DNA of 64,000 bases from the NCBI GenBank assembly GCA_019752635.1, contig JAIELX010000037.1, forward strand, positions 1-64,000, written 5' to 3'. Source of the DNA: Candidatus Obscuribacterales bacterium. Lineage in GTDB: Bacteria > Cyanobacteriota > Vampirovibrionia > Obscuribacterales > Obscuribacteraceae. Both the position numbers and the translations under genes were made by a program. The notes under the pieces were generated by a model. It ran no database searches and was not told where the DNA came from. It saw only the letters and a program-made list of their open reading frames with translations. Of the stretch, positions 1 to 12,187 are shown in pieces. How positions within the stretch are numbered: the first letter of the stretch is position 1; the number at the start of each line of letters is the position of its first letter.

Positions 1-91
1 CGGAAAGCAGCTCATGCTACGATCCGGATATCTGCTGGTTCAGAACAATTTTCAACTGAGATTGGGACAATCCCAAAGTCGCAAAGTTTGG

Positions 92-131
92 CCGGAGCTG
101 TGCTTGCCATAATCGGCAAGCATAGCTCCGG
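92..131 (-). terminator. Hairpin after PIG-L gene
   Basis: Two 17-nt arms (92-108 and 115-131) pair with one G-T wobble around a 6-nt loop. It lies about 50 nt past the stop of the minus-strand deacetylase gene. No good T-run follows, so it may act as an RNA 3'-end stabiliser rather than a classic intrinsic terminator. Confidence 0.55.
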
Positions 132-179
132 GAGCCATTGTTGCAGGTGATCGGCAGGCGATCTAACTAGACACTCGTA

Positions 180-896
180 TTAGAACACGGGGCGCAAATC
201 GACACGGTGAAAGCACTCACCGTACGTCATCTGCTTCTGTTCTCCCACTTTTGAAGCGTGGTTGCGCAGCCAAGCGGCTACTGGGCCTGCCTTCGGGAAT
301 TGTGTCTTGTGGCATGCCACGGCATCGATCCGTGCGTCGATGTGGTCGGTGATGTCTTCGAAGTGATTCGGCGTGTTGCTGTCCCAGAGAAAGAGATCTT
401 TGACGGCGTGCGCCGAGAGTCCCTGCGCGCTAAGCTGATCGGGATAAAGCAGTCGCGCTCTGGCGTAGGGGTAAGCTGCGTCCATGGCAAGTTCGCCGAC
501 GACTCTGTGATCGCGGTGATTCACCTCGTTCCAATCAAGCAGCAGTGTTCGTGGATCATGAGTGAATAGGGCGTCGGGACGCCAGGTGCGGATTTGGCGG
601 ACGATTTGTCCTCGCAACGCGGAGCTGTATTCCACGCCGCCATCGGGTTGGCGGAGGAACTCAACACCAGATGCACCCAGAAGTTTCGCTGCTTCGCGCT
701 GTTCAGCTTCGCGTTGTGCGATCATTTGTTCCGCAGTTAAAGTGTTGCGCCTGCCGCCGCATTCACCGCTTGTTACCAGCAACAGACACACCTGTGCGCC
801 TTGTGTGGCGAACTTGGCAATGGTGCCACCACAGGACATTTCAACGTCGTCCGGGTGAGCAGCCACGACCAGAACTCTATTCGGAATTTCTAACAT
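180..896 (-). CDS. PIG-L family zinc-dependent deacetylase
   Basis: A 238-aa LmbE/PIG-L protein. These enzymes remove an N-acetyl group from GlcNAc-containing sugars or glycoconjugates using one metal ion. The signature HPDD (residues 14-17) sits at the end of the first beta strand, and NHRDH (126-130) supplies the second metal-binding histidine. Length is normal for the family. I start it at the ATG at 896 because AGAAGGGA lies just upstream; the open frame continues 48 codons further but that part has no family-like sequence. The substrate cannot be told: no mycothiol, bacillithiol or GPI gene is nearby. A 59-bp gap separates it from the gene upstream, so co-transcription is possible. Confidence 0.93.
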   Translation of the reverse strand: MLEIPNRVLVVAAHPDDVEMSCGGTIAKFATQGAQVCLLLVTSGECGGRRNTLTAEQMIAQREAEQREAAKLLGASGVEFLRQPDGGVEYSSALRGQIVRQIRTWRPDALFTHDPRTLLLDWNEVNHRDHRVVGELAMDAAYPYARARLLYPDQLSAQGLSAHAVKDLFLWDSNTPNHFEDITDHIDARIDAVACHKTQFPKAGPVAAWLRNHASKVGEQKQMTYGECFHRVDLRPVF

Positions 897-955
897 CAAT
901 AGTCCCTTCTGCGCCGGTCTGAATGTTTGAAATGAGACCGGCGGCTGTTTGACGG

Positions 956-1561
956 TTAGTCGTGCGTGAACTTCGTCGCGAGCATGTCGCGCGGATCGGG
1001 CTGGTCGATGCCTAGGTAGGTGCACCGAATATGGTTCCACAGCTTCAGCTTTTGCCAGTCCGGCGGGTTGGCGTAGTTCATGTCGTGCGTGAGCAGGGGG
1101 TTCGGCAGGTAGACCGTGAGCGTCTGCTCAGCCTCCGGCATCCTGCTGTTGAAGCATCGTAATGCCCAGAATGTCGGTTCACCTCTGGCGTTTAGTTTGC
1201 GGTAGAGCTCCACTCGAGACGGTCTGCGGATGGCCGCGACTTCAGGAGCGGTGGGCGAACAGTGATAGCCCTTGTTAAGACCGACACACAGATGCATGTG
1301 TCCGTAGTGCCCGAATTCGACCGTCAAGTAGCCGTCGAGGAAGCCGAGCTTCGTTGGTGCGCAAGGCGGTTCGAACTCCAGCACGCCTCCCTGGATGAGC
1401 AGTCCGTACTGAATCTCCTTCCACCAGTTGGTAAAGATGTCCGTAAAGAGCTTCTTGAGTGACTCTTCCGTGGTATCGAGTTGCCAGATTTCGAGCGTGC
1501 CGTTGCCAGGCTCGTTGACAGTGAGGTGCGGAGCCAGGTTTGCAGAGGCCGTTGTCGTCAT
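956..1561 (-). CDS. Conserved-looking hypothetical protein, 201 aa
   Basis: Not assigned to a family. The protein has no signal peptide or membrane segment. It is rich in aromatic residues and has a central His-rich stretch (GHYGHMHLCVG, residues about 84-94) that could bind metal, followed by a Cys in a KGYHC context. The C-terminal half reads like a compact globular domain ending in DPRDMLATKF. The ATG at 1561 follows a GGAG site. A perfect 10-bp inverted repeat lies immediately upstream. It is downstream of the B12-controlled pair on the same strand, but a 318-bp gap suggests its own promoter. It could belong to one of the uncharacterised DUF families of metal-handling bacteria; I cannot show this. 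Confidence 0.8.
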   Translation of the reverse strand: MTTTASANLAPHLTVNEPGNGTLEIWQLDTTEESLKKLFTDIFTNWWKEIQYGLLIQGGVLEFEPPCAPTKLGFLDGYLTVEFGHYGHMHLCVGLNKGYHCSPTAPEVAAIRRPSRVELYRKLNARGEPTFWALRCFNSRMPEAEQTLTVYLPNPLLTHDMNYANPPDWQKLKLWNHIRCTYLGIDQPDPRDMLATKFTHD

Positions 1562-1580
1562 GGTCTTTGCTCCGTGTCGA

Positions 1581-1614
1581 CTCAGATGTTGCTACTTCTT
1601 TGCGAACATCTGAG
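1581..1614. promoter_or_regulatory. Leader inverted repeat
   Basis: CTCAGATGTT and AACATCTGAG are perfect 10-bp arms around a 14-nt loop, ending 20 nt upstream of the start of the 201-aa gene. The position suits an operator or a leader hairpin. The rest of the 318-bp gap (1562-1879) shows only GC-rich GCGAG-type low-complexity sequence around 1770-1815. Confidence 0.5.
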
Positions 1615-1879
1615 ATTGTCGTGGCGGTAGCTATTTGCAGGTTCGAAGGGAAAGTTGGAGCTCGAGAAGTTGAGGGTGAAAGAGACGACTGAAATTACTG
1701 CATTGGTTAATGTGTCCACAATGAGAGTGCGAAATGATTGCGGAAGATTGCCTGCGCGAACCGCGCAAAGCAAGGCGAGGTAAGCGAAGCGAGGCGAGTG
1801 CGTCGGCGCTCGGCTGCAAGGATATGGTTGCGATGCCTTCGTATGTGGTATCGCTGGCTAAGATCGAGGAATAATGCGT

Positions 1880-2338
1880 TTAGTGATCCGCTATCGCAAA
1901 TCCCCTTTCGGCTGCCGCGCAAGTGCGCTTGTTGGCGATGTCGCGCAGTACTTCCGCCCAGCGTTCACTGACGCAATGCAGGTAAGTAGTCTTGTTTTGC
2001 TGGTGTTTGAGAGTCACCACCGGTGCGTTTTCGCATTGCCAGTGGCAGCCGGTGGACTCCACCGCACAGCCCAATCTTTCGCTTAACTCCTGAAGTGATG
2101 CTCCTGCAGGATTCAAGTAGGAGCTTCGAATGCATGGTTTGTCCGTGCATACGTAAAGCTTTCGTTCAGCATCGTGGTACTGCCGGAGCGCCTCGTTCAG
2201 GGCTCTTTGATAAGCTTCCTTGCAGATCGTAATGCCTTTGCTTTCCGCGTAGAATCCAAGCAAATCCGTAACATCACGTTCCTCAACGTTTCCGTTCTTG
2301 TGGATTACTAGTGATAGTGCCGAGCGAAAGACGTCCAT
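1880..2338 (-). CDS. Thioredoxin-like [2Fe-2S] ferredoxin-domain protein
   Basis: A 152-aa protein. The second half matches the thioredoxin-like 2Fe-2S ferredoxin fold: a strand followed by CTDKPC (Cys 64 and 69), then about 30 residues, then CHWQC (Cys 98 and 102) leading into a hydrophobic NAPVVTL strand. Cys 91 and Cys 122 are extra. The first 60 residues are an unassigned helical domain. In known proteins this fold occurs in hydrogenase/NuoE subunits and as a domain linked to cobalamin biosynthesis (CbiX/CbiW type). It starts 3 nt after the stop of the preceding gene, so both belong to one transcript under the cobalamin riboswitch at about 3.2 kb. That context supports a role in corrinoid or cobalt metabolism, as inference. 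Confidence 0.82.
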   Translation of the reverse strand: MDVFRSALSLVIHKNGNVEERDVTDLLGFYAESKGITICKEAYQRALNEALRQYHDAERKLYVCTDKPCIRSSYLNPAGASLQELSERLGCAVESTGCHWQCENAPVVTLKHQQNKTTYLHCVSERWAEVLRDIANKRTCAAAERGFAIADH

Positions 2339-2341
2339 TGA

Positions 2342-3145
2342 TTACGCTACCTTGAGAATGCCGCGTGTGAATGCGTAGCGAAGGGCCGCGTGGATATCCG
2401 TTTGCAGCTTCTGCTGAGCCTGACAGGACTGGTCGAGAGTCAGCCTTATGAGTTGATCTAGTTCGGCGCGAGTGGATTCAAAAACATCTTTTTTGACTGA
2501 ATTCAATTCGTCACTGGACAGGCGCGGTCGCTTCTTGATGGAGTTGCTTACCTGGTTTGCAACGCCGACACCAAGTGGCATACCGGGCTCAATGAAGAAA
2601 AGGCAGTTGCCGTTTAGCAAAGACATGTCGGCGTAGCTTGGATCGGTTTCGGTCATTAGTTTGCGTACTGCAGAAATCTCGTTGGTATCGGCAAACATCA
2701 TGTCGGCGCTTTGTTTGCCGGTAGCAAACGTGTAGTAGTTGGAGAAGTAGCAGGTCGCATAAATCTCTTCGTCGCTTTCGATAACCGGGTAGATGTTTGA
2801 TCGGAGGCGGGGATCGCCGGGGCGATAGGCAATACCCTGCAGTGTCCACGTCGCGGTGTCGGACCATACCGAGCTGATTTCGTCCGCCAGTTTGATAGCG
2901 TTGTCGGGCAGTTCGAGCCCCAGCATCATTGCGTCTTGTTCGGCATGGTGCGCTGCTTTTATAACAATGCTGCGTGCAGCCATTCGATAGATGAGCACTG
3001 CTTGCGGTGTGCCATGGCGCGCTAGATCAGTGAACGATTCTTCGTGAATGTATATTCGTCGTCCGACAGGATCGCTTGCTTTTCTTTTGTCCGGCGGGCT
3101 TTCGCAGCCACCTGACGGATTGATTCCGCACGATAAAGTTTGCAT
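2342..3145 (-). CDS. Unknown protein, first gene after a cobalamin riboswitch
   Basis: A 267-aa soluble protein with no signal peptide or membrane helix that I do not recognise. Its N-terminus carries two Cys in a CGINPSGGC arrangement (residues 6-14). The rest reads as a mixed alpha/beta domain followed by a helical C-terminal third rich in Asp, Gln and Leu. The ATG at 3145 sits directly behind the T-run of the riboswitch terminator, so transcription into the gene should depend on cobalamin. No clear Shine-Dalgarno site is visible except the GGGAG inside the terminator stem, 13 nt away, so a later start (for example Met 54) is possible. It is co-transcribed with the 2Fe-2S protein. Possible roles: corrinoid biosynthesis, cobalt handling or a B12-independent bypass enzyme; none is shown by sequence. 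Confidence 0.78.
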   Translation of the reverse strand: MQTLSCGINPSGGCESPPDKRKASDPVGRRIYIHEESFTDLARHGTPQAVLIYRMAARSIVIKAAHHAEQDAMMLGLELPDNAIKLADEISSVWSDTATWTLQGIAYRPGDPRLRSNIYPVIESDEEIYATCYFSNYYTFATGKQSADMMFADTNEISAVRKLMTETDPSYADMSLLNGNCLFFIEPGMPLGVGVANQVSNSIKKRPRLSSDELNSVKKDVFESTRAELDQLIRLTLDQSCQAQQKLQTDIHAALRYAFTRGILKVA

Positions 3146-3151
3146 GAAAAC

Positions 3152-3340
3152 AAAAAACTCCCGGACTAAAGCCAGGAGAAATGCATGGCAGGCTGAACCG
3201 CACGTCCAGACAAGCTAGTGCACCTCTCTTTGCCTCGAAGAGGATGAATATTTCATTCAGGGTGGGCATTCTGACTTGAGCGGGAGCTCTTACAGTTGCG
3301 GGACAGCGGTGGATTTGCACCACACTTCCCCCACGTTCTG
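3152..3340 (-). promoter_or_regulatory. Cobalamin riboswitch with intrinsic terminator
   Basis: Read on the minus strand, the leader carries the hallmark cobalamin aptamer elements in order: GGGGGAAG, GGTGCAAATCCACC (3321-3308), CCCGCAACTGTAAG (3302-3289, the B12-box region) and GTCAGAATGCCCACCC (3275-3260). About 80 nt later a hairpin with 7-nt arms (3158-3164 / 3172-3178) is followed by TTTTTTG, directly before the start codon at 3145. This is the layout of a ligand-induced transcription-termination riboswitch: cobalamin binding should switch the downstream pair off. Assignment rests on visual match to the Rfam cobalamin consensus, not on a covariance search. Confidence 0.88.
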
Positions 3341-3722
3341 AACGACCAATATCAGCAGTGGAATCAATTGGCTCTTGCAGTCTACAGCCCCTTGGCGAGA
3401 CTTCGGGGGGGGGAGGCTTGCAAGTGTGCAAAATCTTTTCAAAATTCCGGGTGCACTGTGCGCTGTTGAAATCACTGCGATCAAACAACTTCTGATTTAC
3501 GCTAGAAACGCTGGTGCATTCCGCAAACAAAGAGATTCTGCACTCAGTTCTTATGATTTCAGCGATAAATGAGGGTTTGTGCGTCCCGTATGCGCTCGGC
3601 CTTGGTGAGGATGCTAAGTTGGAGTAATCAACTCATAACAACTAGACACGCGACTTAAGAACCCAAGAATAAATTCTCCTCACTGTCCGAACAAGCATCC
3701 TTAATCCGTGAAGGGATCTGCG
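3341..3722. other. Intergenic region upstream of the riboswitch
   Basis: No convincing gene. It holds a run of nine G (3405-3413) and an AT-richer part between 3420 and 3660 where the promoter of the riboswitch transcript should lie; I cannot pick a -35/-10 pair with confidence. Confidence 0.4.
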
Positions 3723-3938
3723 ATGGTGTCTTTCTTCTTTCTGGTGAAGCAGGCGATCTGGTTGTTCGTACTGGTCCAAGTATCTCGCCACTGTTTGGCG
3801 AAGGGGCGGGACAAGCGCGTGCCGGAATTGAAGCGATGTGGGTACGGCCTCGGTGTACTTAGCGCCATCGCCAGTGCGGCGATGGCTGTCCTCATGCTCT
3901 GGACGCTCTTTCTCGGTGTGTCCTGTTTGAAGACGTGA
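3723..3938 (+). CDS. Small two-helix membrane protein
   Basis: A 71-aa ORF with two hydrophobic stretches (about residues 3-19 and 44-66) separated by a basic loop, the look of a small inner-membrane protein. The ATG at 3723 is preceded by GAAGGGA at good spacing. Its TGA overlaps a GTG (GTGA, 3935-3938) opening the next frame, which suggests coupling. No family recognised; support comes from the start site, hydrophobicity pattern and context only. Confidence 0.5.
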   Translation: MVSFFFLVKQAIWLFVLVQVSRHCLAKGRDKRVPELKRCGYGLGVLSAIASAAMAVLMLWTLFLGVSCLKT

Positions 3939-4423
3939 CACTAACCTTTCGAGGTGCAATATGCATTGTGCGGAAGTATCAGATCCAGTTTCAGAAGCCG
4001 ACCGCTGGTCAGCGCTACCTTCAGGTCCCTGAGGGCAGCGAGTTTCTCCATCTCTTCAATCACTGCGGCAGCATCCAGGCTGTAACGAAACGCCCGGTGC
4101 GGACGTGTCAATGTGCCGTGCGGATGGAAATTCCTATGGAGCCGCCGCGACAGTTGAATAAGGTGCATCCGATCCCTCCGTTGTGGCAAAGGGAGCGCTT
4201 TGAGGTGCGCTCGGGGCGCAATACAATCTGCGCACCGGCCAACTGGGTTGTCACCGAGCTCACGTCCGGCGCAATTCATCTGTGCGGTCCGATTCGGTCG
4301 CGTCTGGTGCCGCGGCTCGTGCCGCGTTGCTTCTACGTGTTCGCCTGCAACCAGAGCGCTCCTGCCGACGTGGTGGATCGGCTCAGTTATGTGGGCGCGG
4401 CCGCGAGCTACAGCAGTAGCTAA
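3935..4423 (+). CDS. Possible small hypothetical protein
   Basis: A 162-codon frame whose GTG start overlaps the TGA of the preceding small membrane protein. A second possible start is the GTG at 3968, giving MRKYQIQF followed by QVPEGSEFLHL, a sequence style seen in small beta-rich phage and bacterial proteins. The middle is arginine-rich and odd, so a decayed or frameshifted gene is possible. A 208-codon frame lies on the opposite strand (3941-4567); I prefer the plus frame because its amino acid composition is more natural at both ends. Low confidence. Confidence 0.33.
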   Translation: MTLTFRGAICIVRKYQIQFQKPTAGQRYLQVPEGSEFLHLFNHCGSIQAVTKRPVRTCQCAVRMEIPMEPPRQLNKVHPIPPLWQRERFEVRSGRNTICAPANWVVTELTSGAIHLCGPIRSRLVPRLVPRCFYVFACNQSAPADVVDRLSYVGAAASYSSS

Positions 4424-4634
4424 CGTTCGTGGGAGGGCCGTGTTGAGTTTTTCGAGCTGATCGATGCGGCGCAACTGAGTTGCGCATGCAATTGCTTCGC
4501 CCCCTGTCTGTGCGCTTCCACGGGTATAACAAGCAAGTCTCTCGATCAAGGTGCATCGGCACCGCATTGCGCTACATGCACTTGCAGAGAGCAGAGAATC
4601 GCGAACCGACTGCCATCCCTGTTCGTGAAGATTA

Positions 4635-4664
4635 GAGGAGACTGCCCGGCCGGGTAGTCTCCTC
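4635..4664. terminator. Palindromic hairpin
   Basis: GAGGAGACTGCCCGG and CCGGGTAGTCTCCTC abut with one wobble, a near-perfect 15-bp palindrome. It could end transcripts of the plus-strand pair at 3.7-4.4 kb. The stretch 4424-4853 otherwise holds no gene. Confidence 0.5.
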
Positions 4665-4810
4665 GGTCTGCTATCCGGGAGGGATTGTCCAATTTAGAGG
4701 TTTCGATCGCCGTGGTTCTGAACCCTCAAGTTCTCTTGGCTTTTGGCTTTGGCGTAAAACTACTATATGAAATCGGACGAAGAAAGATAGTGGAAGCGGT
4801 TCAAAGCGTA

Positions 4811-8014: not shown

Positions 8015-9181
8015 CTAATCCGCGATGAAATTGATGGAGTGCGACTCTGATAGCTCTGGTACTTCCAGTCTTCGGGAAAGTCGTTCAAGTATCGCTGCGG
8101 GAACTGGATGTTTGCGAGCTGAGTTTCTTGAGAGGAGCTCGGCATAGGATGCAGGCTCACAGTAGACGATTCGGACACGCGCTCCATAGTTTGCGAAAAG
8201 GTCGAGCAAACCTGAACGCATAAATCGAGAGATGTTAGTGGCGTTCCAAACGAATGAAGTCCCTCTTCTCAAATAGGCTTTGGCGGATTCGCGGGCCTCA
8301 GCAATCACAGGATTTTGGTCGTCAGTGGCATCGATTTTTTGCGCGGCGCGAATGCGGTCTAATGAAATTAGGGGAGTCTCTTTCGCGCTCGTCTCAATCC
8401 AATAGTCCTTACCGGAAGCTGGCAAGCCTGACATCATGGTCACTTCTAGCTTGCGGTCGTCGTGAACTAAGCGGTCCGGCAGTTGCGACTCGCTGCGGAA
8501 ATATGAAAAACGGCTGTGATCCGAAGGAAACGTTGGAGCCTGTTTCAAACAATTGTGTTCGTTGCAGAATTGTTCGAAAAGAGCGACTCGTTCAAGCAGC
8601 TCGTTCTTGTCCGTGCATGATCTTCCGCGCACATCCGCTTCCGCCAAAAGGCACAGCCAGTTCATGCGAAGTGATAGTGCCGCTTTCAAAGTCGCTTTGA
8701 CAGGGTCTGCTTTGTCGAGAAACCACAAAGGTAAACCGGAATAGCGGACCATGCGGTCGACAGCGTGGCGCACCGCAAATGGTGCCGCTCCGTCGGGTCC
8801 GAATCCCTGCCAGAGGAGTAAGCGAGACATAGACGCACCTAGCTTGGTATGCTCGCGAGAGCTGATGTTTCCGTTTTCGTCACGCTCCGTGCATACGGGT
8901 TTGGCTATGTCGTGAAGTAAGGCCGCCAAAAATACAATCGATCGCTCGTATTCCGGTAGCTCTCGCCAGCTTTCTATGCGAGTCAGGGCCTCGCAGACCA
9001 TCATGGTATGGGTGAGAACGTCGCCTTCCGCGTGATGTTGCGGATCTTGAATGCATCCTCGTAATGCTTGTATCTCCGGAATCGTTTGAATCGCATTCCA
9101 GTCTATGCGCCAGTTCGGGGCGGTTGGTGTCAACGTCCACACGTATTGACGGGCGACATGCATATGTTTGGAATTGTTCAC
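8015..9181 (-). CDS. HD-Pnk: HD phosphoesterase fused to polynucleotide kinase
   Basis: A 388-aa two-domain RNA end-healing enzyme. Residues about 50-190 form an HD domain (His 58, then LLHDIAKP with His 90 and Asp 91), which in characterised HD-Pnk (Runella) removes 2',3'-cyclic phosphate or 3' phosphate. Residues about 245-388 form a P-loop kinase with Walker A GLPASGKD (252-259) and SLDRIR (273-278), expected to phosphorylate 5'-OH ends. It starts at GTG 9181, which overlaps the TGA of the RNA ligase gene (GTGA), so the two are translationally coupled. Together they would heal and seal cut RNA, a complete repair module. The domain order and pairing match the known HD-Pnk/ligase cluster. 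Confidence 0.9.
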   Translation of the reverse strand: MNNSKHMHVARQYVWTLTPTAPNWRIDWNAIQTIPEIQALRGCIQDPQHHAEGDVLTHTMMVCEALTRIESWRELPEYERSIVFLAALLHDIAKPVCTERDENGNISSREHTKLGASMSRLLLWQGFGPDGAAPFAVRHAVDRMVRYSGLPLWFLDKADPVKATLKAALSLRMNWLCLLAEADVRGRSCTDKNELLERVALFEQFCNEHNCLKQAPTFPSDHSRFSYFRSESQLPDRLVHDDRKLEVTMMSGLPASGKDYWIETSAKETPLISLDRIRAAQKIDATDDQNPVIAEARESAKAYLRRGTSFVWNATNISRFMRSGLLDLFANYGARVRIVYCEPASYAELLSRNSARKHPVPAAILERLSRRLEVPELSESHSINFIAD

Positions 9182-9984
9182 GAACCCGTCTCCTGTCGAA
9201 ACAGCAAGTCTTCAGCGCCGATTAGGCGATTTGGAATTATAGGCCTGTTCAGCCAATGGGAACCTGATTGCGTTACCGTCGCCAAAAATGTGTGACGAAC
9301 GAATTTGTATCGTTCCTTCACGACTCCGTTTTCTTCGACTTTGATGTAAAGTCCTTCCATCAGTGGGCTGCTATCAGTTTCTTCCAGTGTGCGTTGCTCA
9401 TCGATTTCGCGCATGCGGCAGGTTTCTGCGAGATTGTCGCTGCGCTGATCCGTGACGTAGTTCGATCGCACCAGTAGATTTGTTAGTTGCCTGCTTGACT
9501 GAAGTTCTCCCTGAAAGAGAACCGGAACTGCACTGATGGGTACGGCGGTTGCTCCAAGCAGCGACTTTCTGCGATCCGTGCTCAAGAACTGCTTGTGCTC
9601 TTTGTCGAACACGTCAAACTCGAGCCAGTAGTGAGGTAGCGCGTCGTAGAAAATTGTGTGTTTGGCATAAAGCCATTCGCCATAGGCGATGTAGCGCGTG
9701 CCCAGCACGTCGTGCAGGGCACACGCATGTGTATTGGCCCAGGTCTTGAGCAAGTTAAAGTGCTTTTCGCGCGGTCCGCCAGTCAAGAAGTGACCGCGGC
9801 TTTGAATCAGGAGCTTGCCGTCAGCTGAAAAACTGATACCACTATTGGCACCATCTAGTTTCTCCTCGACTACGATGTGACGCCCCTTGATTGCTGAGAA
9901 GGGTATAGAGTCCAGGTCCTCGTCACCTGCTTGCAGGCGCGAGCCTTCAATGTGGTGCGTACGCGGATATTTCAGTAACTCCAT
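9178..9984 (-). CDS. ATP-dependent RNA ligase (Rnl5-like)
   Basis: A 268-aa ligase that joins 3'-OH and 5'-phosphate RNA ends through a lysine-AMP intermediate. Motif I is EKLDGAN (41-47, nucleotidyl Lys 42); motif III-like LEFDVFD and motif IV-like MEGLYIKVEE with a following KFVR (motif V) occur downstream. I choose the ATG at 9984 (MELLKYPRTHH), because the KYPRT start is typical of the family; the open frame extends 11 codons upstream. It overlaps the HD-Pnk gene by 4 bp. This is the sealing half of the RNA repair pair. Codon use is less biased than in the neighbouring pepA region. Confidence 0.92.
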   Translation of the reverse strand: MELLKYPRTHHIEGSRLQAGDEDLDSIPFSAIKGRHIVVEEKLDGANSGISFSADGKLLIQSRGHFLTGGPREKHFNLLKTWANTHACALHDVLGTRYIAYGEWLYAKHTIFYDALPHYWLEFDVFDKEHKQFLSTDRRKSLLGATAVPISAVPVLFQGELQSSRQLTNLLVRSNYVTDQRSDNLAETCRMREIDEQRTLEETDSSPLMEGLYIKVEENGVVKERYKFVRHTFLATVTQSGSHWLNRPIIPNRLIGAEDLLFRQETGS

Positions 9985-10356
9985 AGGATTATCCAGTGTT
10001 CTGCAACTAATTATCATCTCACGCTCACATAAGATGTGCCAGGGCGCCAGCCGCGCTACCTGCTGGCTGTGGGAGGATCATCCCCGGGCCGTGCGTGAAT
10101 CCCCGGGGGCGGCAGGCCTGCCCGCCGAAGGCGTAGCACCCGAGACAGCGTGCGTGCGATGGTCTCTATCAGGGGGTGCTGCATGCGCGGCGCTTTGTAC
10201 CCATGAGCCTCTTCTGTAGGGTGGTGGTATTCACTTTCCTTTTCACCACTCTCAGGTCGTTACCGCTTAACCAGTCGCAGTTACATCATTGTCGGCCTTC
10301 TCGCCTTGCCTTCTTGCAAGTGTGATTGACCGCAACTTTTTTCTCGGGAGAAAACC
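9985..10356. other. GC-rich, highly self-complementary intergenic region
   Basis: No gene seen. Between 10070 and 10200 several complementary pairs crowd together: CCCCGGG (10082) with CCCCGGGG (10101), and GGCGGCAGG with CCTGCCCGCC (about 10108-10126). It is a shared leader between the divergent ligase and the 195-aa gene and could encode a structured RNA. Confidence 0.4.
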
Positions 10357-10944
10357 ATGATTGGACGCGCTTTCCATGTCGAACGAAGAATTGCGGGTGT
10401 TTGGGAATTAGTCCCGCCGCCCGACGGCAAACGTACCTGGGAAACTCACCACCACACGGGTTTGTTTTACTTGCTCTGCGGTGGTGACCCGAAGTATGTG
10501 CGCGACTCCTGCCGGCACTTCGCCGTTGCGCACATACTGCCCTGCCGTGGTTTGCCCGTCGACGTCACCGCGCAGGTCGCCGATGCGCGGGACCACACGA
10601 ACTGCGGGTGGGGCGAAACCTGGTACTCGCTGGCTGAGTTGCTCGCCTTCGGGTGGGACAACGAGGTCATCGTCGAGGAATTGGTGTGCCCCGCCGAATA
10701 CGTTCTCCTGGTCGGGGACAACCGCCTTGTGACTGACAATGACGAACTGCGCAGCTTCCTGAATCGCGAAGGTGCGGCAGTCGCGCGGCAGCGAAAATTC
10801 GGTCAGGAGAACAGCGCTTCCGGCGTCGTGCGCTACCGCGATACTTTCCGTGCGCAGAGTGGAAACTTCTTCGCCGACCTGCCTCACATCCAGGCGGCCG
10901 GTAACCCGGACGACGTCCGGATCATTGCCTGGTGGGAAGAGTAA
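10357..10944 (+). CDS. Hypothetical protein, 195 aa
   Basis: I do not recognise a family. The protein is soluble, without signal peptide or membrane segment. It has five Cys (two in the first 55 residues) and many Trp and Asp, with HTNCGWGETWYSL near residues 80-92 and a VIVEELVCPAEYVLLVGDN strand-rich stretch near 103-121. The ATG at 10357 is preceded by GGGAGAAAACC. It begins a plus-strand run with the zinc-ribbon membrane protein (35-bp gap) and the nucleotidyltransferase (41-bp gap), probably one operon. Composition and codon bias match the GC-rich gene group of this window. Confidence 0.82.
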   Translation: MIGRAFHVERRIAGVWELVPPPDGKRTWETHHHTGLFYLLCGGDPKYVRDSCRHFAVAHILPCRGLPVDVTAQVADARDHTNCGWGETWYSLAELLAFGWDNEVIVEELVCPAEYVLLVGDNRLVTDNDELRSFLNREGAAVARQRKFGQENSASGVVRYRDTFRAQSGNFFADLPHIQAAGNPDDVRIIAWWEE

Positions 10945-10979
10945 TCCACCCGGACAGTCTCTAACTGGAGGACAGAACC

Positions 10980-11414
10980 ATGAAGGGGAGCGGACTGGGT
11001 TACGCCATTCTGGCAGTCGTGATGCTCTTGCTTTACGGCATCGCAATGTTGTTCCGCGGCATCGTCAGTGCCATAGTCGGTACGGCGGTGCAGCAGGAGG
11101 CCAATCGTCAGGCAAAGGCGCGGCTTGGACAGTCGTCCTGCCCGCCGCCAGCGGCCAACACCGGATGGCAGCCACCGCCGGGGTGGAATCGTCCGGGAAT
11201 CGCGCCGACGCCGGTGTGCCGCGCACCGATGCTGGCAGACTCGGAACCCGACGTGTTGTGTCAGTGGTGCCAGCCACAGTTTCACGACGGTGGTAAGTTC
11301 TGCACCCGTTGCGGCACCTTTACGCGCTCGCGGCTCTACTGCATCTGCCACGAGTGTGCTTCCGGTCGAAAGGGTGGCTTGCGGACTTGCGAAAGCTGTA
11401 ACCAGCCGGTCTGA
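10980..11414 (+). CDS. Membrane-anchored zinc-ribbon protein
   Basis: A 144-aa protein with one N-terminal membrane helix (about residues 7-30), a Pro/Ala-rich linker, and a C-terminal Cys-rich domain with five Cys pairs or near pairs: CQWC, CTRC, CICHEC and CESC (about 85-142). This spacing suggests two zinc ribbons or a RING-like zinc fold facing the cytoplasm. GGAGG precedes the ATG. It lies in a tight run between the 195-aa protein and the nucleotidyltransferase. Function unknown; zinc ribbons of this kind usually mediate nucleic-acid or protein contact. Confidence 0.8.
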   Translation: MKGSGLGYAILAVVMLLLYGIAMLFRGIVSAIVGTAVQQEANRQAKARLGQSSCPPPAANTGWQPPPGWNRPGIAPTPVCRAPMLADSEPDVLCQWCQPQFHDGGKFCTRCGTFTRSRLYCICHECASGRKGGLRTCESCNQPV

Positions 11415-11455
11415 CCAAACTGGCGCATGGATGCGCTTTTCAGGAGGGCAATGTC

Positions 11456-12187
11456 ATGACTAAGCAACTGTCGCGCCGAGACCAGGAGCGACAGACCCGC
11501 AAACAGAAGCTCGATGCAATCGCGCGCAATGTGCTGCGCGTTATCGTCGGCTCTCATGCGCACGGCACTGCGGGCCCGACTTCCGACACTGATATTCGCT
11601 CGGTCTTCATGGTGCCGACCGCGGCGCTTGTCTCGCTGGACCCGCCGCCCGACACCGCGAAGAAGGAGAGCGAGGGCGACGACAACGCCTGGGAGCTGGC
11701 GCACTTCATGCGGTTGTGCTGCAAGGGTAGCCCCACCGTTTTCGAGGTGTTGCTGGTCGACCCGTTCGAGTGCAACGAAATCGGTACCGGATTGCGCAGG
11801 CTGATGCCGCACACTCTGGCCCGGCCGGTTATCTTCAACGCCTTCTACGGCTACGCCAGAAGGGAGAAGGGCACGTTCCTGTCGCCGCTTTCCGGGCGCA
11901 TATTCAAGAGCATGGGCCACTACCTGCGCATTTTGTACAACGGTGCCGAGATCCTGCGGACAGGCACCATGACAGTGCGCATCGTCGATACGCCTATCGG
12001 GCAAATGTGCCTGGACGCGAAGCGCGGGCTGCTCAAGGCGGAGGACGTTCTAGCCAAGGGTGAGGAACTGATTGCCGACCTGCGGCGTGCCGAAGCCGAG
12101 TCGCCCTTGCCGGAATTGCCGAACATGGAGCCGCTGAACGAGTTCTTGCTCGATGTTCGTCGCAAGCACTTCACTTGGACCGACTGA
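11456..12187 (+). CDS. Predicted nucleotidyltransferase (Pol beta superfamily, YcgL/COG3541-like)
   Basis: A 243-aa protein with the minimal nucleotidyltransferase core: GSHAHGT (32-38) followed by the metal-binding SDTD (43-46) and IRSVF strand. The remainder is helical, with an ELAHFMRLCCKGSP stretch typical of this family, which is found in bacteria and large phages. The catalytic Asp pair and GS turn are intact, so it should be active; the acceptor (tRNA, protein or small molecule) is unknown. The ATG follows AGGAGGGCAATGTC. It is the third gene of a plus-strand run and ends before a strong hairpin at 12226-12265. Confidence 0.9.
   Translation: MTKQLSRRDQERQTRKQKLDAIARNVLRVIVGSHAHGTAGPTSDTDIRSVFMVPTAALVSLDPPPDTAKKESEGDDNAWELAHFMRLCCKGSPTVFEVLLVDPFECNEIGTGLRRLMPHTLARPVIFNAFYGYARREKGTFLSPLSGRIFKSMGHYLRILYNGAEILRTGTMTVRIVDTPIGQMCLDAKRGLLKAEDVLAKGEELIADLRRAEAESPLPELPNMEPLNEFLLDVRRKHFTWTD

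Follow-up and report, generated by a model that had tools for sequence, protein, structure and literature searches.

A cobalamin riboswitch heads an orphan gene, a ferredoxin-type gene and a DUF7676 gene in an Obscuribacterales bacterium: a probable B12-scavenging operon

The minus strand of the DNA studied here carries what is probably an operon for B12 scavenging, unusual in its make-up and including one new component or more. The window, that is, the whole stretch of DNA that was analysed, comprises bases 1-64000 of contig C43 (68,691 bases), which belongs to a genome of 9.2 Mb in 159 contigs (86% complete, 6% contamination). Behind a cobalamin riboswitch, the gene order is orf267 (encoding an orphan protein), fdx152 (a small iron-sulphur protein), a DUF7676 gene and a PIG-L gene (Table 1). 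The explanation that we consider the most probable, with some reservation, is that of a B12-repressed operon for the acquisition and processing of a corrinoid or of cobalt, in which the DUF7676 and ferredoxin modules are split, BtuB and BtuFCD are absent, and an orphan has been added.

Table 1. Features of the riboswitch-headed operon (positions in the window).
Feature	Position	Strand	Basis
AdoCbl/cobalamin riboswitch aptamer (RF01482)	3218..3358	-	Covariance model, 65.1 bits, E 1e-9
Possible antiterminator strand CUGGAC	3204..3209	-	Complementary to GUCCGG (3166-3161) in the terminator 3' arm
Intrinsic terminator of the expression platform	3148..3178	-	Stem 3178-3158 and T-rich tail adjoining the ATG at 3145
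orf267, orphan, 267 aa	2342..3145	-	ORF calling and codon use; soluble by hydropathy
fdx152, putative thioredoxin-like [2Fe-2S] ferredoxin-type protein, 152 aa	1880..2338	-	Cys64-x4-Cys69 ... Cys98-x3-Cys102
DUF7676 (PF24724) protein, 201 aa	956..1561	-	Pfam E 5.7e-56
PIG-L/BshB1-like deacetylase	about 180..893	-	PF02585, E 4e-33

Only 3 bases separate orf267 from fdx152, while the gap between fdx152 and the DUF7676 gene is 318 bases and that between the latter and the PIG-L gene is 62 bases. A scan of positions 1-4800 detected no minus-strand promoter-like site and, as the sole minus-strand terminator-like site, the stem at 3178-3158, which fits a single transcript in which co-transcription would extend across the 318-base gap. 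The PIG-L gene, whose product scores 107 bits against TIGR04001 (under the cut-off of 182.5), is a possible last gene of the operon, as judged from its strand and the 62-base gap. There are no TonB receptor or BtuFCD genes among the window genes downstream of the riboswitch, and the sole FecCD permease of this genome is on contig C56, near neither of its two riboswitches.

The covariance models confirm the cobalamin riboswitch predicted from the sequence alone and show it to be a genuine, full-length one of the AdoCbl class. The RF01482 match (cmscan) spans model positions 1-149 of 149 and exceeds the gathering score of 50, and RF00174, the model named in the original prediction, also matches (43.6 bits versus a cut-off of 31.5). 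A terminator ending right at the start codon had been described as well, and its T-rich tail does reach to within 1-2 bases of the orf267 ATG. The stem consists of 7 pairs, 5 of them G-C, followed by TTTTTTGTTT, and it also forms when the sequence that follows the aptamer is folded to minimum free energy. When both strands of 1-4800 are considered, 7 terminator-like sites appear versus 5.2 in shuffles; the pattern alone is weak, and it is the position of the stem that supports the terminator call. The only other cobalamin riboswitch found in the genome, located on contig C7 before cobN, shares the same aptamer-terminator-ATG layout.

We infer the ligand and the direction of the response as follows. 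With ample AdoCbl, the bound aptamer would let the terminator form and the operon, from orf267 through fdx152 to DUF7676 (and possibly PIG-L), would be off. With scarce AdoCbl, the strand CUGGAC on the 3' side of the aptamer could pair with the 3' arm of the terminator and allow read-through; if this pairing is forced, the RNA folds at -16.5 kcal/mol, versus -22.0 kcal/mol for the terminator form.

The first gene had been described as coding for an unknown protein, and the searches agree. When the orf267 protein was compared with Pfam, NCBIfam, PHROGs and the sequences of the PDB, no family was matched, enzyme families included, and the best scores (NCBIfam E 0.026, PDB E 0.55) were at chance level. 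No relatives were found in 99 genomes of related bacteria, among viral contigs, phages and plasmids, in a genome contig collection (a pattern-based search for close relatives only), in E. coli genomes (a DNA search for near matches) or, with phmmer, in the loci fetched during the analysis; 386 genomes of the phylum yielded chance-level matches only (E 0.01-0.04). The gene is also missing from a genome of the same genus (G001, 66% complete). A haem-oxygenase/TENA-like protein encoded before DUF7676 in another genome (G402) was compared with it because both appeared helical, and was rejected as a relative (hhalign probability 0.1). Structure prediction, also suggested originally, did not produce a usable model (AlphaFold2, single sequence, pLDDT 37.7).

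Several properties of orf267 are those of a gene. Its frame stays open in none of 2000 base shuffles, and its codon score is 0.116, with 19 training genes spanning 0.068-0.199; the median of 67 spurious ORFs is -0.049 and the best of them, at 0.116, equals orf267. The maximum 19-residue hydropathy is 1.14, without any strongly hydrophobic stretch. The protein may be an accessory partner in the operon.

The second gene, fdx152, had been described as encoding a thioredoxin-like 2Fe-2S protein, although it lies outside positions 2342-3340, to which that description was attached. The assignment as a [2Fe-2S] protein rests on four conserved cysteines (Cys64, Cys69, Cys98 and Cys102), which are invariant in all three aligned intact fdx152 proteins. 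With the PF01257 ferredoxins it shares the C-x4-C...C-x3-C pattern, but it scores 15.5 bits, under the Pfam cut-off of 24.8, and has an N-terminal stretch of its own, of about 60 residues, that is conserved inside the small fdx152 group. Clear relatives were found only in Obscuribacterales. Among the families compared, the closest is the ferredoxin domain fused to cyanobacterial DUF7676, with which the fdx152 profile aligns over all four cysteines (hhalign probability 78.6); the proposal that it is a domain of the sort attached to cobalt chelatases is not supported. DUF1636 (PF07845) was also discarded as its family, given a score of 15.8 bits, under the cut-off of 31.6, and an hhalign probability of 0.8.

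The same genome contains a second fdx152 copy (G000:C102:10843-11184, L019) that is broken by an in-frame stop and is apparently a decayed paralogue. In two other genomes, G021 and G012, relatives of fdx152 are located on other contigs than DUF7676. The one in G012 (G012:C231, L018 124-4004) stands between genes for a FUR-family regulator, an amidohydrolase-like protein and a CobW-type GTPase, a set that we take to resemble zinc-limitation clusters.

The third gene, absent from the original prediction, is the main source of the link to corrinoid or cobalt metabolism. Its product is a clear member of DUF7676 (189 bits versus a Pfam cut-off of 27) and keeps the H-x-H-x-C motif that is found in 35 out of 35 aligned DUF7676 proteins and could be a ligand or metal site. 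All 25 cyanobacterial DUF7676 proteins possess a C-terminal C-x4-C...GC-x3-C domain; a profile of this region matches [2Fe-2S] ferredoxins of the PDB (1f37, E 3e-9), and PF01257 matches 21 of the 35 aligned proteins with E <0.01, mostly under the family cut-off. The window protein, in contrast, has the single-domain form known from proteobacteria, and the ferredoxin is encoded by a gene of its own, upstream. Since fdx152 aligns with the DUF7676-fused domain over the four cysteines, both genes would encode, as neighbours, the split modules of the fusion found in photosynthetic cyanobacteria. AlphaFold2 (single sequence) gave no usable structure for the DUF7676 protein (pLDDT 33.1), and viral contigs scanned with fdx152 and DUF7676 alignments contained no match. 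A literature search found no paper naming DUF7676, which is not mentioned in the available parts of PMC7689651, PMC2667541, PMC2771747, PMC3621897 and PMC4465626; searches for DUF1636 together with cobalamin and for COG5469 found none either.

DUF7676 is present in 26 of the 386 phylum genomes, own genome included. In 22 of the 25 loci from the other genomes, it is preceded within 8 kb by a cobalamin riboswitch on its strand, versus 0.05 loci expected from random placement. The distance from riboswitch to DUF7676 is 2.1-3.3 kb in 21 of these 22 loci; in the remaining one, whose first ORF is MetE-like by eye, it is 6.7 kb. The loci without an upstream riboswitch are those of G233, G188 and G239; in the last one, the contig has only 2.3 kb ahead of DUF7676. 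A TonB receptor is encoded by the preceding ORF in 23/25 loci, and the 71 ORFs located downstream include 17 FecCD, 16 Peripla_BP_2 and 13 ABC_tran proteins, as for an importer of the BtuFCD type (neighbour ORFs were chosen by a longest-non-overlapping rule and some may be wrong, e.g. in L140).

Plasmids of proteobacteria, actinobacteria and cyanobacteria present a similar picture. Twelve of the 14 plasmid records with DUF7676 were examined (H3 and H14 were left out, being from the same species as examined records), and a same-strand upstream riboswitch was found in 10 of them, the exceptions being those of Gloeocapsopsis and Streptomyces. According to a reading of the annotation tables, a TonB receptor gene directly precedes DUF7676 in 10/12 and importer genes adjoin it in 9/12. 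In the riboswitch-less Gloeocapsopsis plasmid, the neighbourhood of DUF7676 comprises folE, hisI and genes for DUF1636 and two GTP-binding proteins, a set that looks, in our opinion, like zinc-limitation genes. The plasmid of Rhodococcus sp. PD04 (L104) carries three cobalamin riboswitches within 18 kb; they precede an importer-FhuF-type-DUF7676 set, another importer set, which includes a protein with a [2Fe-2S] ferredoxin domain, and metE.

The link is looser among the closest relatives. DUF7676 is found in 4 of 60 genomes of relatives (own included), in 5 loci, and only 2 of these 5 Obscuribacterales loci are behind a riboswitch; none was detected ahead of the copies of G011 and G012, even at a lax threshold, and in G011 one copy immediately follows the gene for a NiCoT nickel/cobalt transporter. 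In G021, a member of the same family, DUF7676 is the third gene behind a riboswitch, after an FAD-dependent oxidoreductase and a GNAT acetyltransferase (G021:C84, L020 5192-8066). The suggestion of an undescribed step in corrinoid or cobalt metabolism holds as regards the metabolic link, mainly via DUF7676, whereas nothing shows that orf267 performs such a step.

The nearest studied counterpart is the alr4027-btuB2-alr4030-btuFCD cluster of Anabaena PCC 7120. In the available part of PMC10878165, this cluster follows a cobalamin riboswitch, the alr4027 transcript increases about 100-fold without cobalt, btuD and tonB3 mutants show reduced cobalamin uptake, and alr4030 receives no btu name, a proposed similarity to ferredoxins being noted. 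On plasmid A of Trichormus variabilis the order is DUF1636, receptor, DUF7676-ferredoxin and importer, so alr4030 is very likely the DUF7676-ferredoxin fusion. The window operon would share with the Anabaena one the AdoCbl-type riboswitch at its head and a ferredoxin-like protein. It differs in that DUF7676 and ferredoxin are separate genes and in that BtuB, BtuFCD and a DUF1636-type first gene are replaced by an orphan and PIG-L. In comparison with BtuB-BtuFCD cobalamin-uptake operons in general, it has the riboswitch at the head but neither receptor nor importer. In HmuRSTUV haem-uptake operons, a cytoplasmic ligand-processing protein is encoded between receptor and importer; cyanobacterial DUF7676 has an analogous place, the likeness being one of position alone.

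On these grounds, the operon products probably constitute a cytoplasmic module that acquires or processes a corrinoid or its cobalt, with the DUF7676 and [2Fe-2S] pair most likely acting on the incoming corrinoid. The ferredoxin domain would supply electrons and the HxHxC domain would hold the substrate or a metal, so that cobalt might be reduced, or the upper ligand removed, before adenosylation. Because a protein with a redox domain is encoded between receptor and importer, reduction or stripping of the imported ligand seems the most plausible chemistry; we nevertheless advance it only tentatively, as a possibility. The FhuF-type [2Fe-2S] protein gene that adjoins DUF7676 in Rhodococcus agrees with a role in reductive release. 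A wider proposal, which we hold to be doubtful, is that DUF7676 with a [2Fe-2S] domain is an unrecognised corrinoid reductase or upper-ligand-removing enzyme that, in cyanobacteria, proteobacteria and actinobacteria, acts directly after B12 import and plays the part that the unrelated CblC has in humans, and that in the Obscuribacterales operon it is split and has orf267 as a new and unique partner. Since receptor and importer are absent from this operon, the Obscuribacterales version may use as substrate a corrinoid obtained by other routes, or cobalt.

The targets of cobalamin riboswitches in related bacteria bear on other explanations. Riboswitch matches occur in 27 of 55 genomes of the bacterial family and class concerned. 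Among 43 riboswitch places, 39 were examined, own two included; four below the cut-off were left out (G070, G015:C287, G067 and G053) and another one below it was kept (G019:C37). The first ORF encodes the large chain of ribonucleotide reductase in 16 cases, a thioesterase in 5, MetE in 4, CobN, CbiM, PrpB and acyl-CoA dehydrogenase in 2 each, and NrdD, an FAD oxidoreductase, a corrin methylase and NicO in 1 each. It is without family in 2 of 39, namely the window and a case whose next gene resembles CbiM; even within this bacterial family, orf267 is an unusual riboswitch target. B12-sparing functions are common among the targets, and this speaks for the idea that orf267, receiving electrons from the ferredoxin, takes the place of a B12-dependent enzyme without needing B12 itself and is made only under B12 shortage, DUF7676 being a separate unit. 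The 318-base gap before DUF7676 points in the same direction, as does the base rate of ribonucleotide reductase, MetE, PrpB and NrdD. However, orf267 matches no enzyme family and is confined to a single genome, whereas the isozymes are widespread. The downstream genes, tied together by the ferredoxin-DUF7676 fusion found elsewhere, favour acquisition; we regard a substitute enzyme as unlikely.

The confinement of orf267 to one genome, and its absence from the same-genus genome even if this is incomplete, would also be expected if it were a young or decaying gene without function of its own, the riboswitch really serving fdx152 and DUF7676. The intact 267-codon frame, the gene-like codon use and the close packing of the gene, with its start adjoining the terminator and its stop 3 bases before fdx152, make this quite improbable. 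The least probable alternative, in our judgement, is a general module of metal starvation (zinc or cobalt) whose control by a B12 riboswitch here would be incidental, fdx152 serving in metal delivery and not in corrinoid chemistry. The FUR-family and CobW-type neighbours of the fdx152 relative in G012, the Gloeocapsopsis plasmid and the NiCoT transporter in G011 speak for it, but the upstream riboswitches in 22/25 and 10/12 DUF7676 loci point to cobalamin. A broader role in metal handling would agree with the presence of a riboswitch in only 2/5 Obscuribacterales DUF7676 loci and with the fdx152 relatives that stand apart from DUF7676, one of them by FUR/CobW-type genes.

The corrinoid or cobalt acquisition operon thus preferred has a wider significance. 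Under shortage of cobalamin or cobalt, cyanobacteria and other bacteria switch on an operon for B12 import. A form that is split here and fused elsewhere, together with the tight link to riboswitches, makes the role of the protein encoded between receptor and importer testable, the candidate roles being the processing of the imported corrinoid or the handling of its cobalt. In the non-photosynthetic Obscuribacterales, B12 switches are on many genes (ribonucleotide reductase, MetE, the methylcitrate cycle and cobalt uptake), and these targets should be useful for inferring ecology from metagenomes.

Other observations were made in these genomes. A prpB-prpC-prpD methylcitrate operon is under a cobalamin riboswitch in G019 (C16, L068 2253-5770) and in G007 (C10, L065 9224-10120); PrpB, PrpC and PrpD of the former pass the NCBIfam equivalog cut-offs, those of the latter were read by eye, and both genomes have, at a distance of about 8-9 kb, a second riboswitch with an acyl-CoA dehydrogenase operon behind it. 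A 4HBT acyl-CoA thioesterase gene is behind a cobalamin riboswitch in five relatives (L059, L069, L073, L085 and L088). The window itself also contains, at 8015-12187, an RNA-repair-like set composed of an HD plus AAA_33 kinase-type gene (8015-9181), an RNA ligase gene (9178-10017) and, on the strand opposite to the ligase, a gene for an RlaP nucleotidyltransferase (11456-12187).
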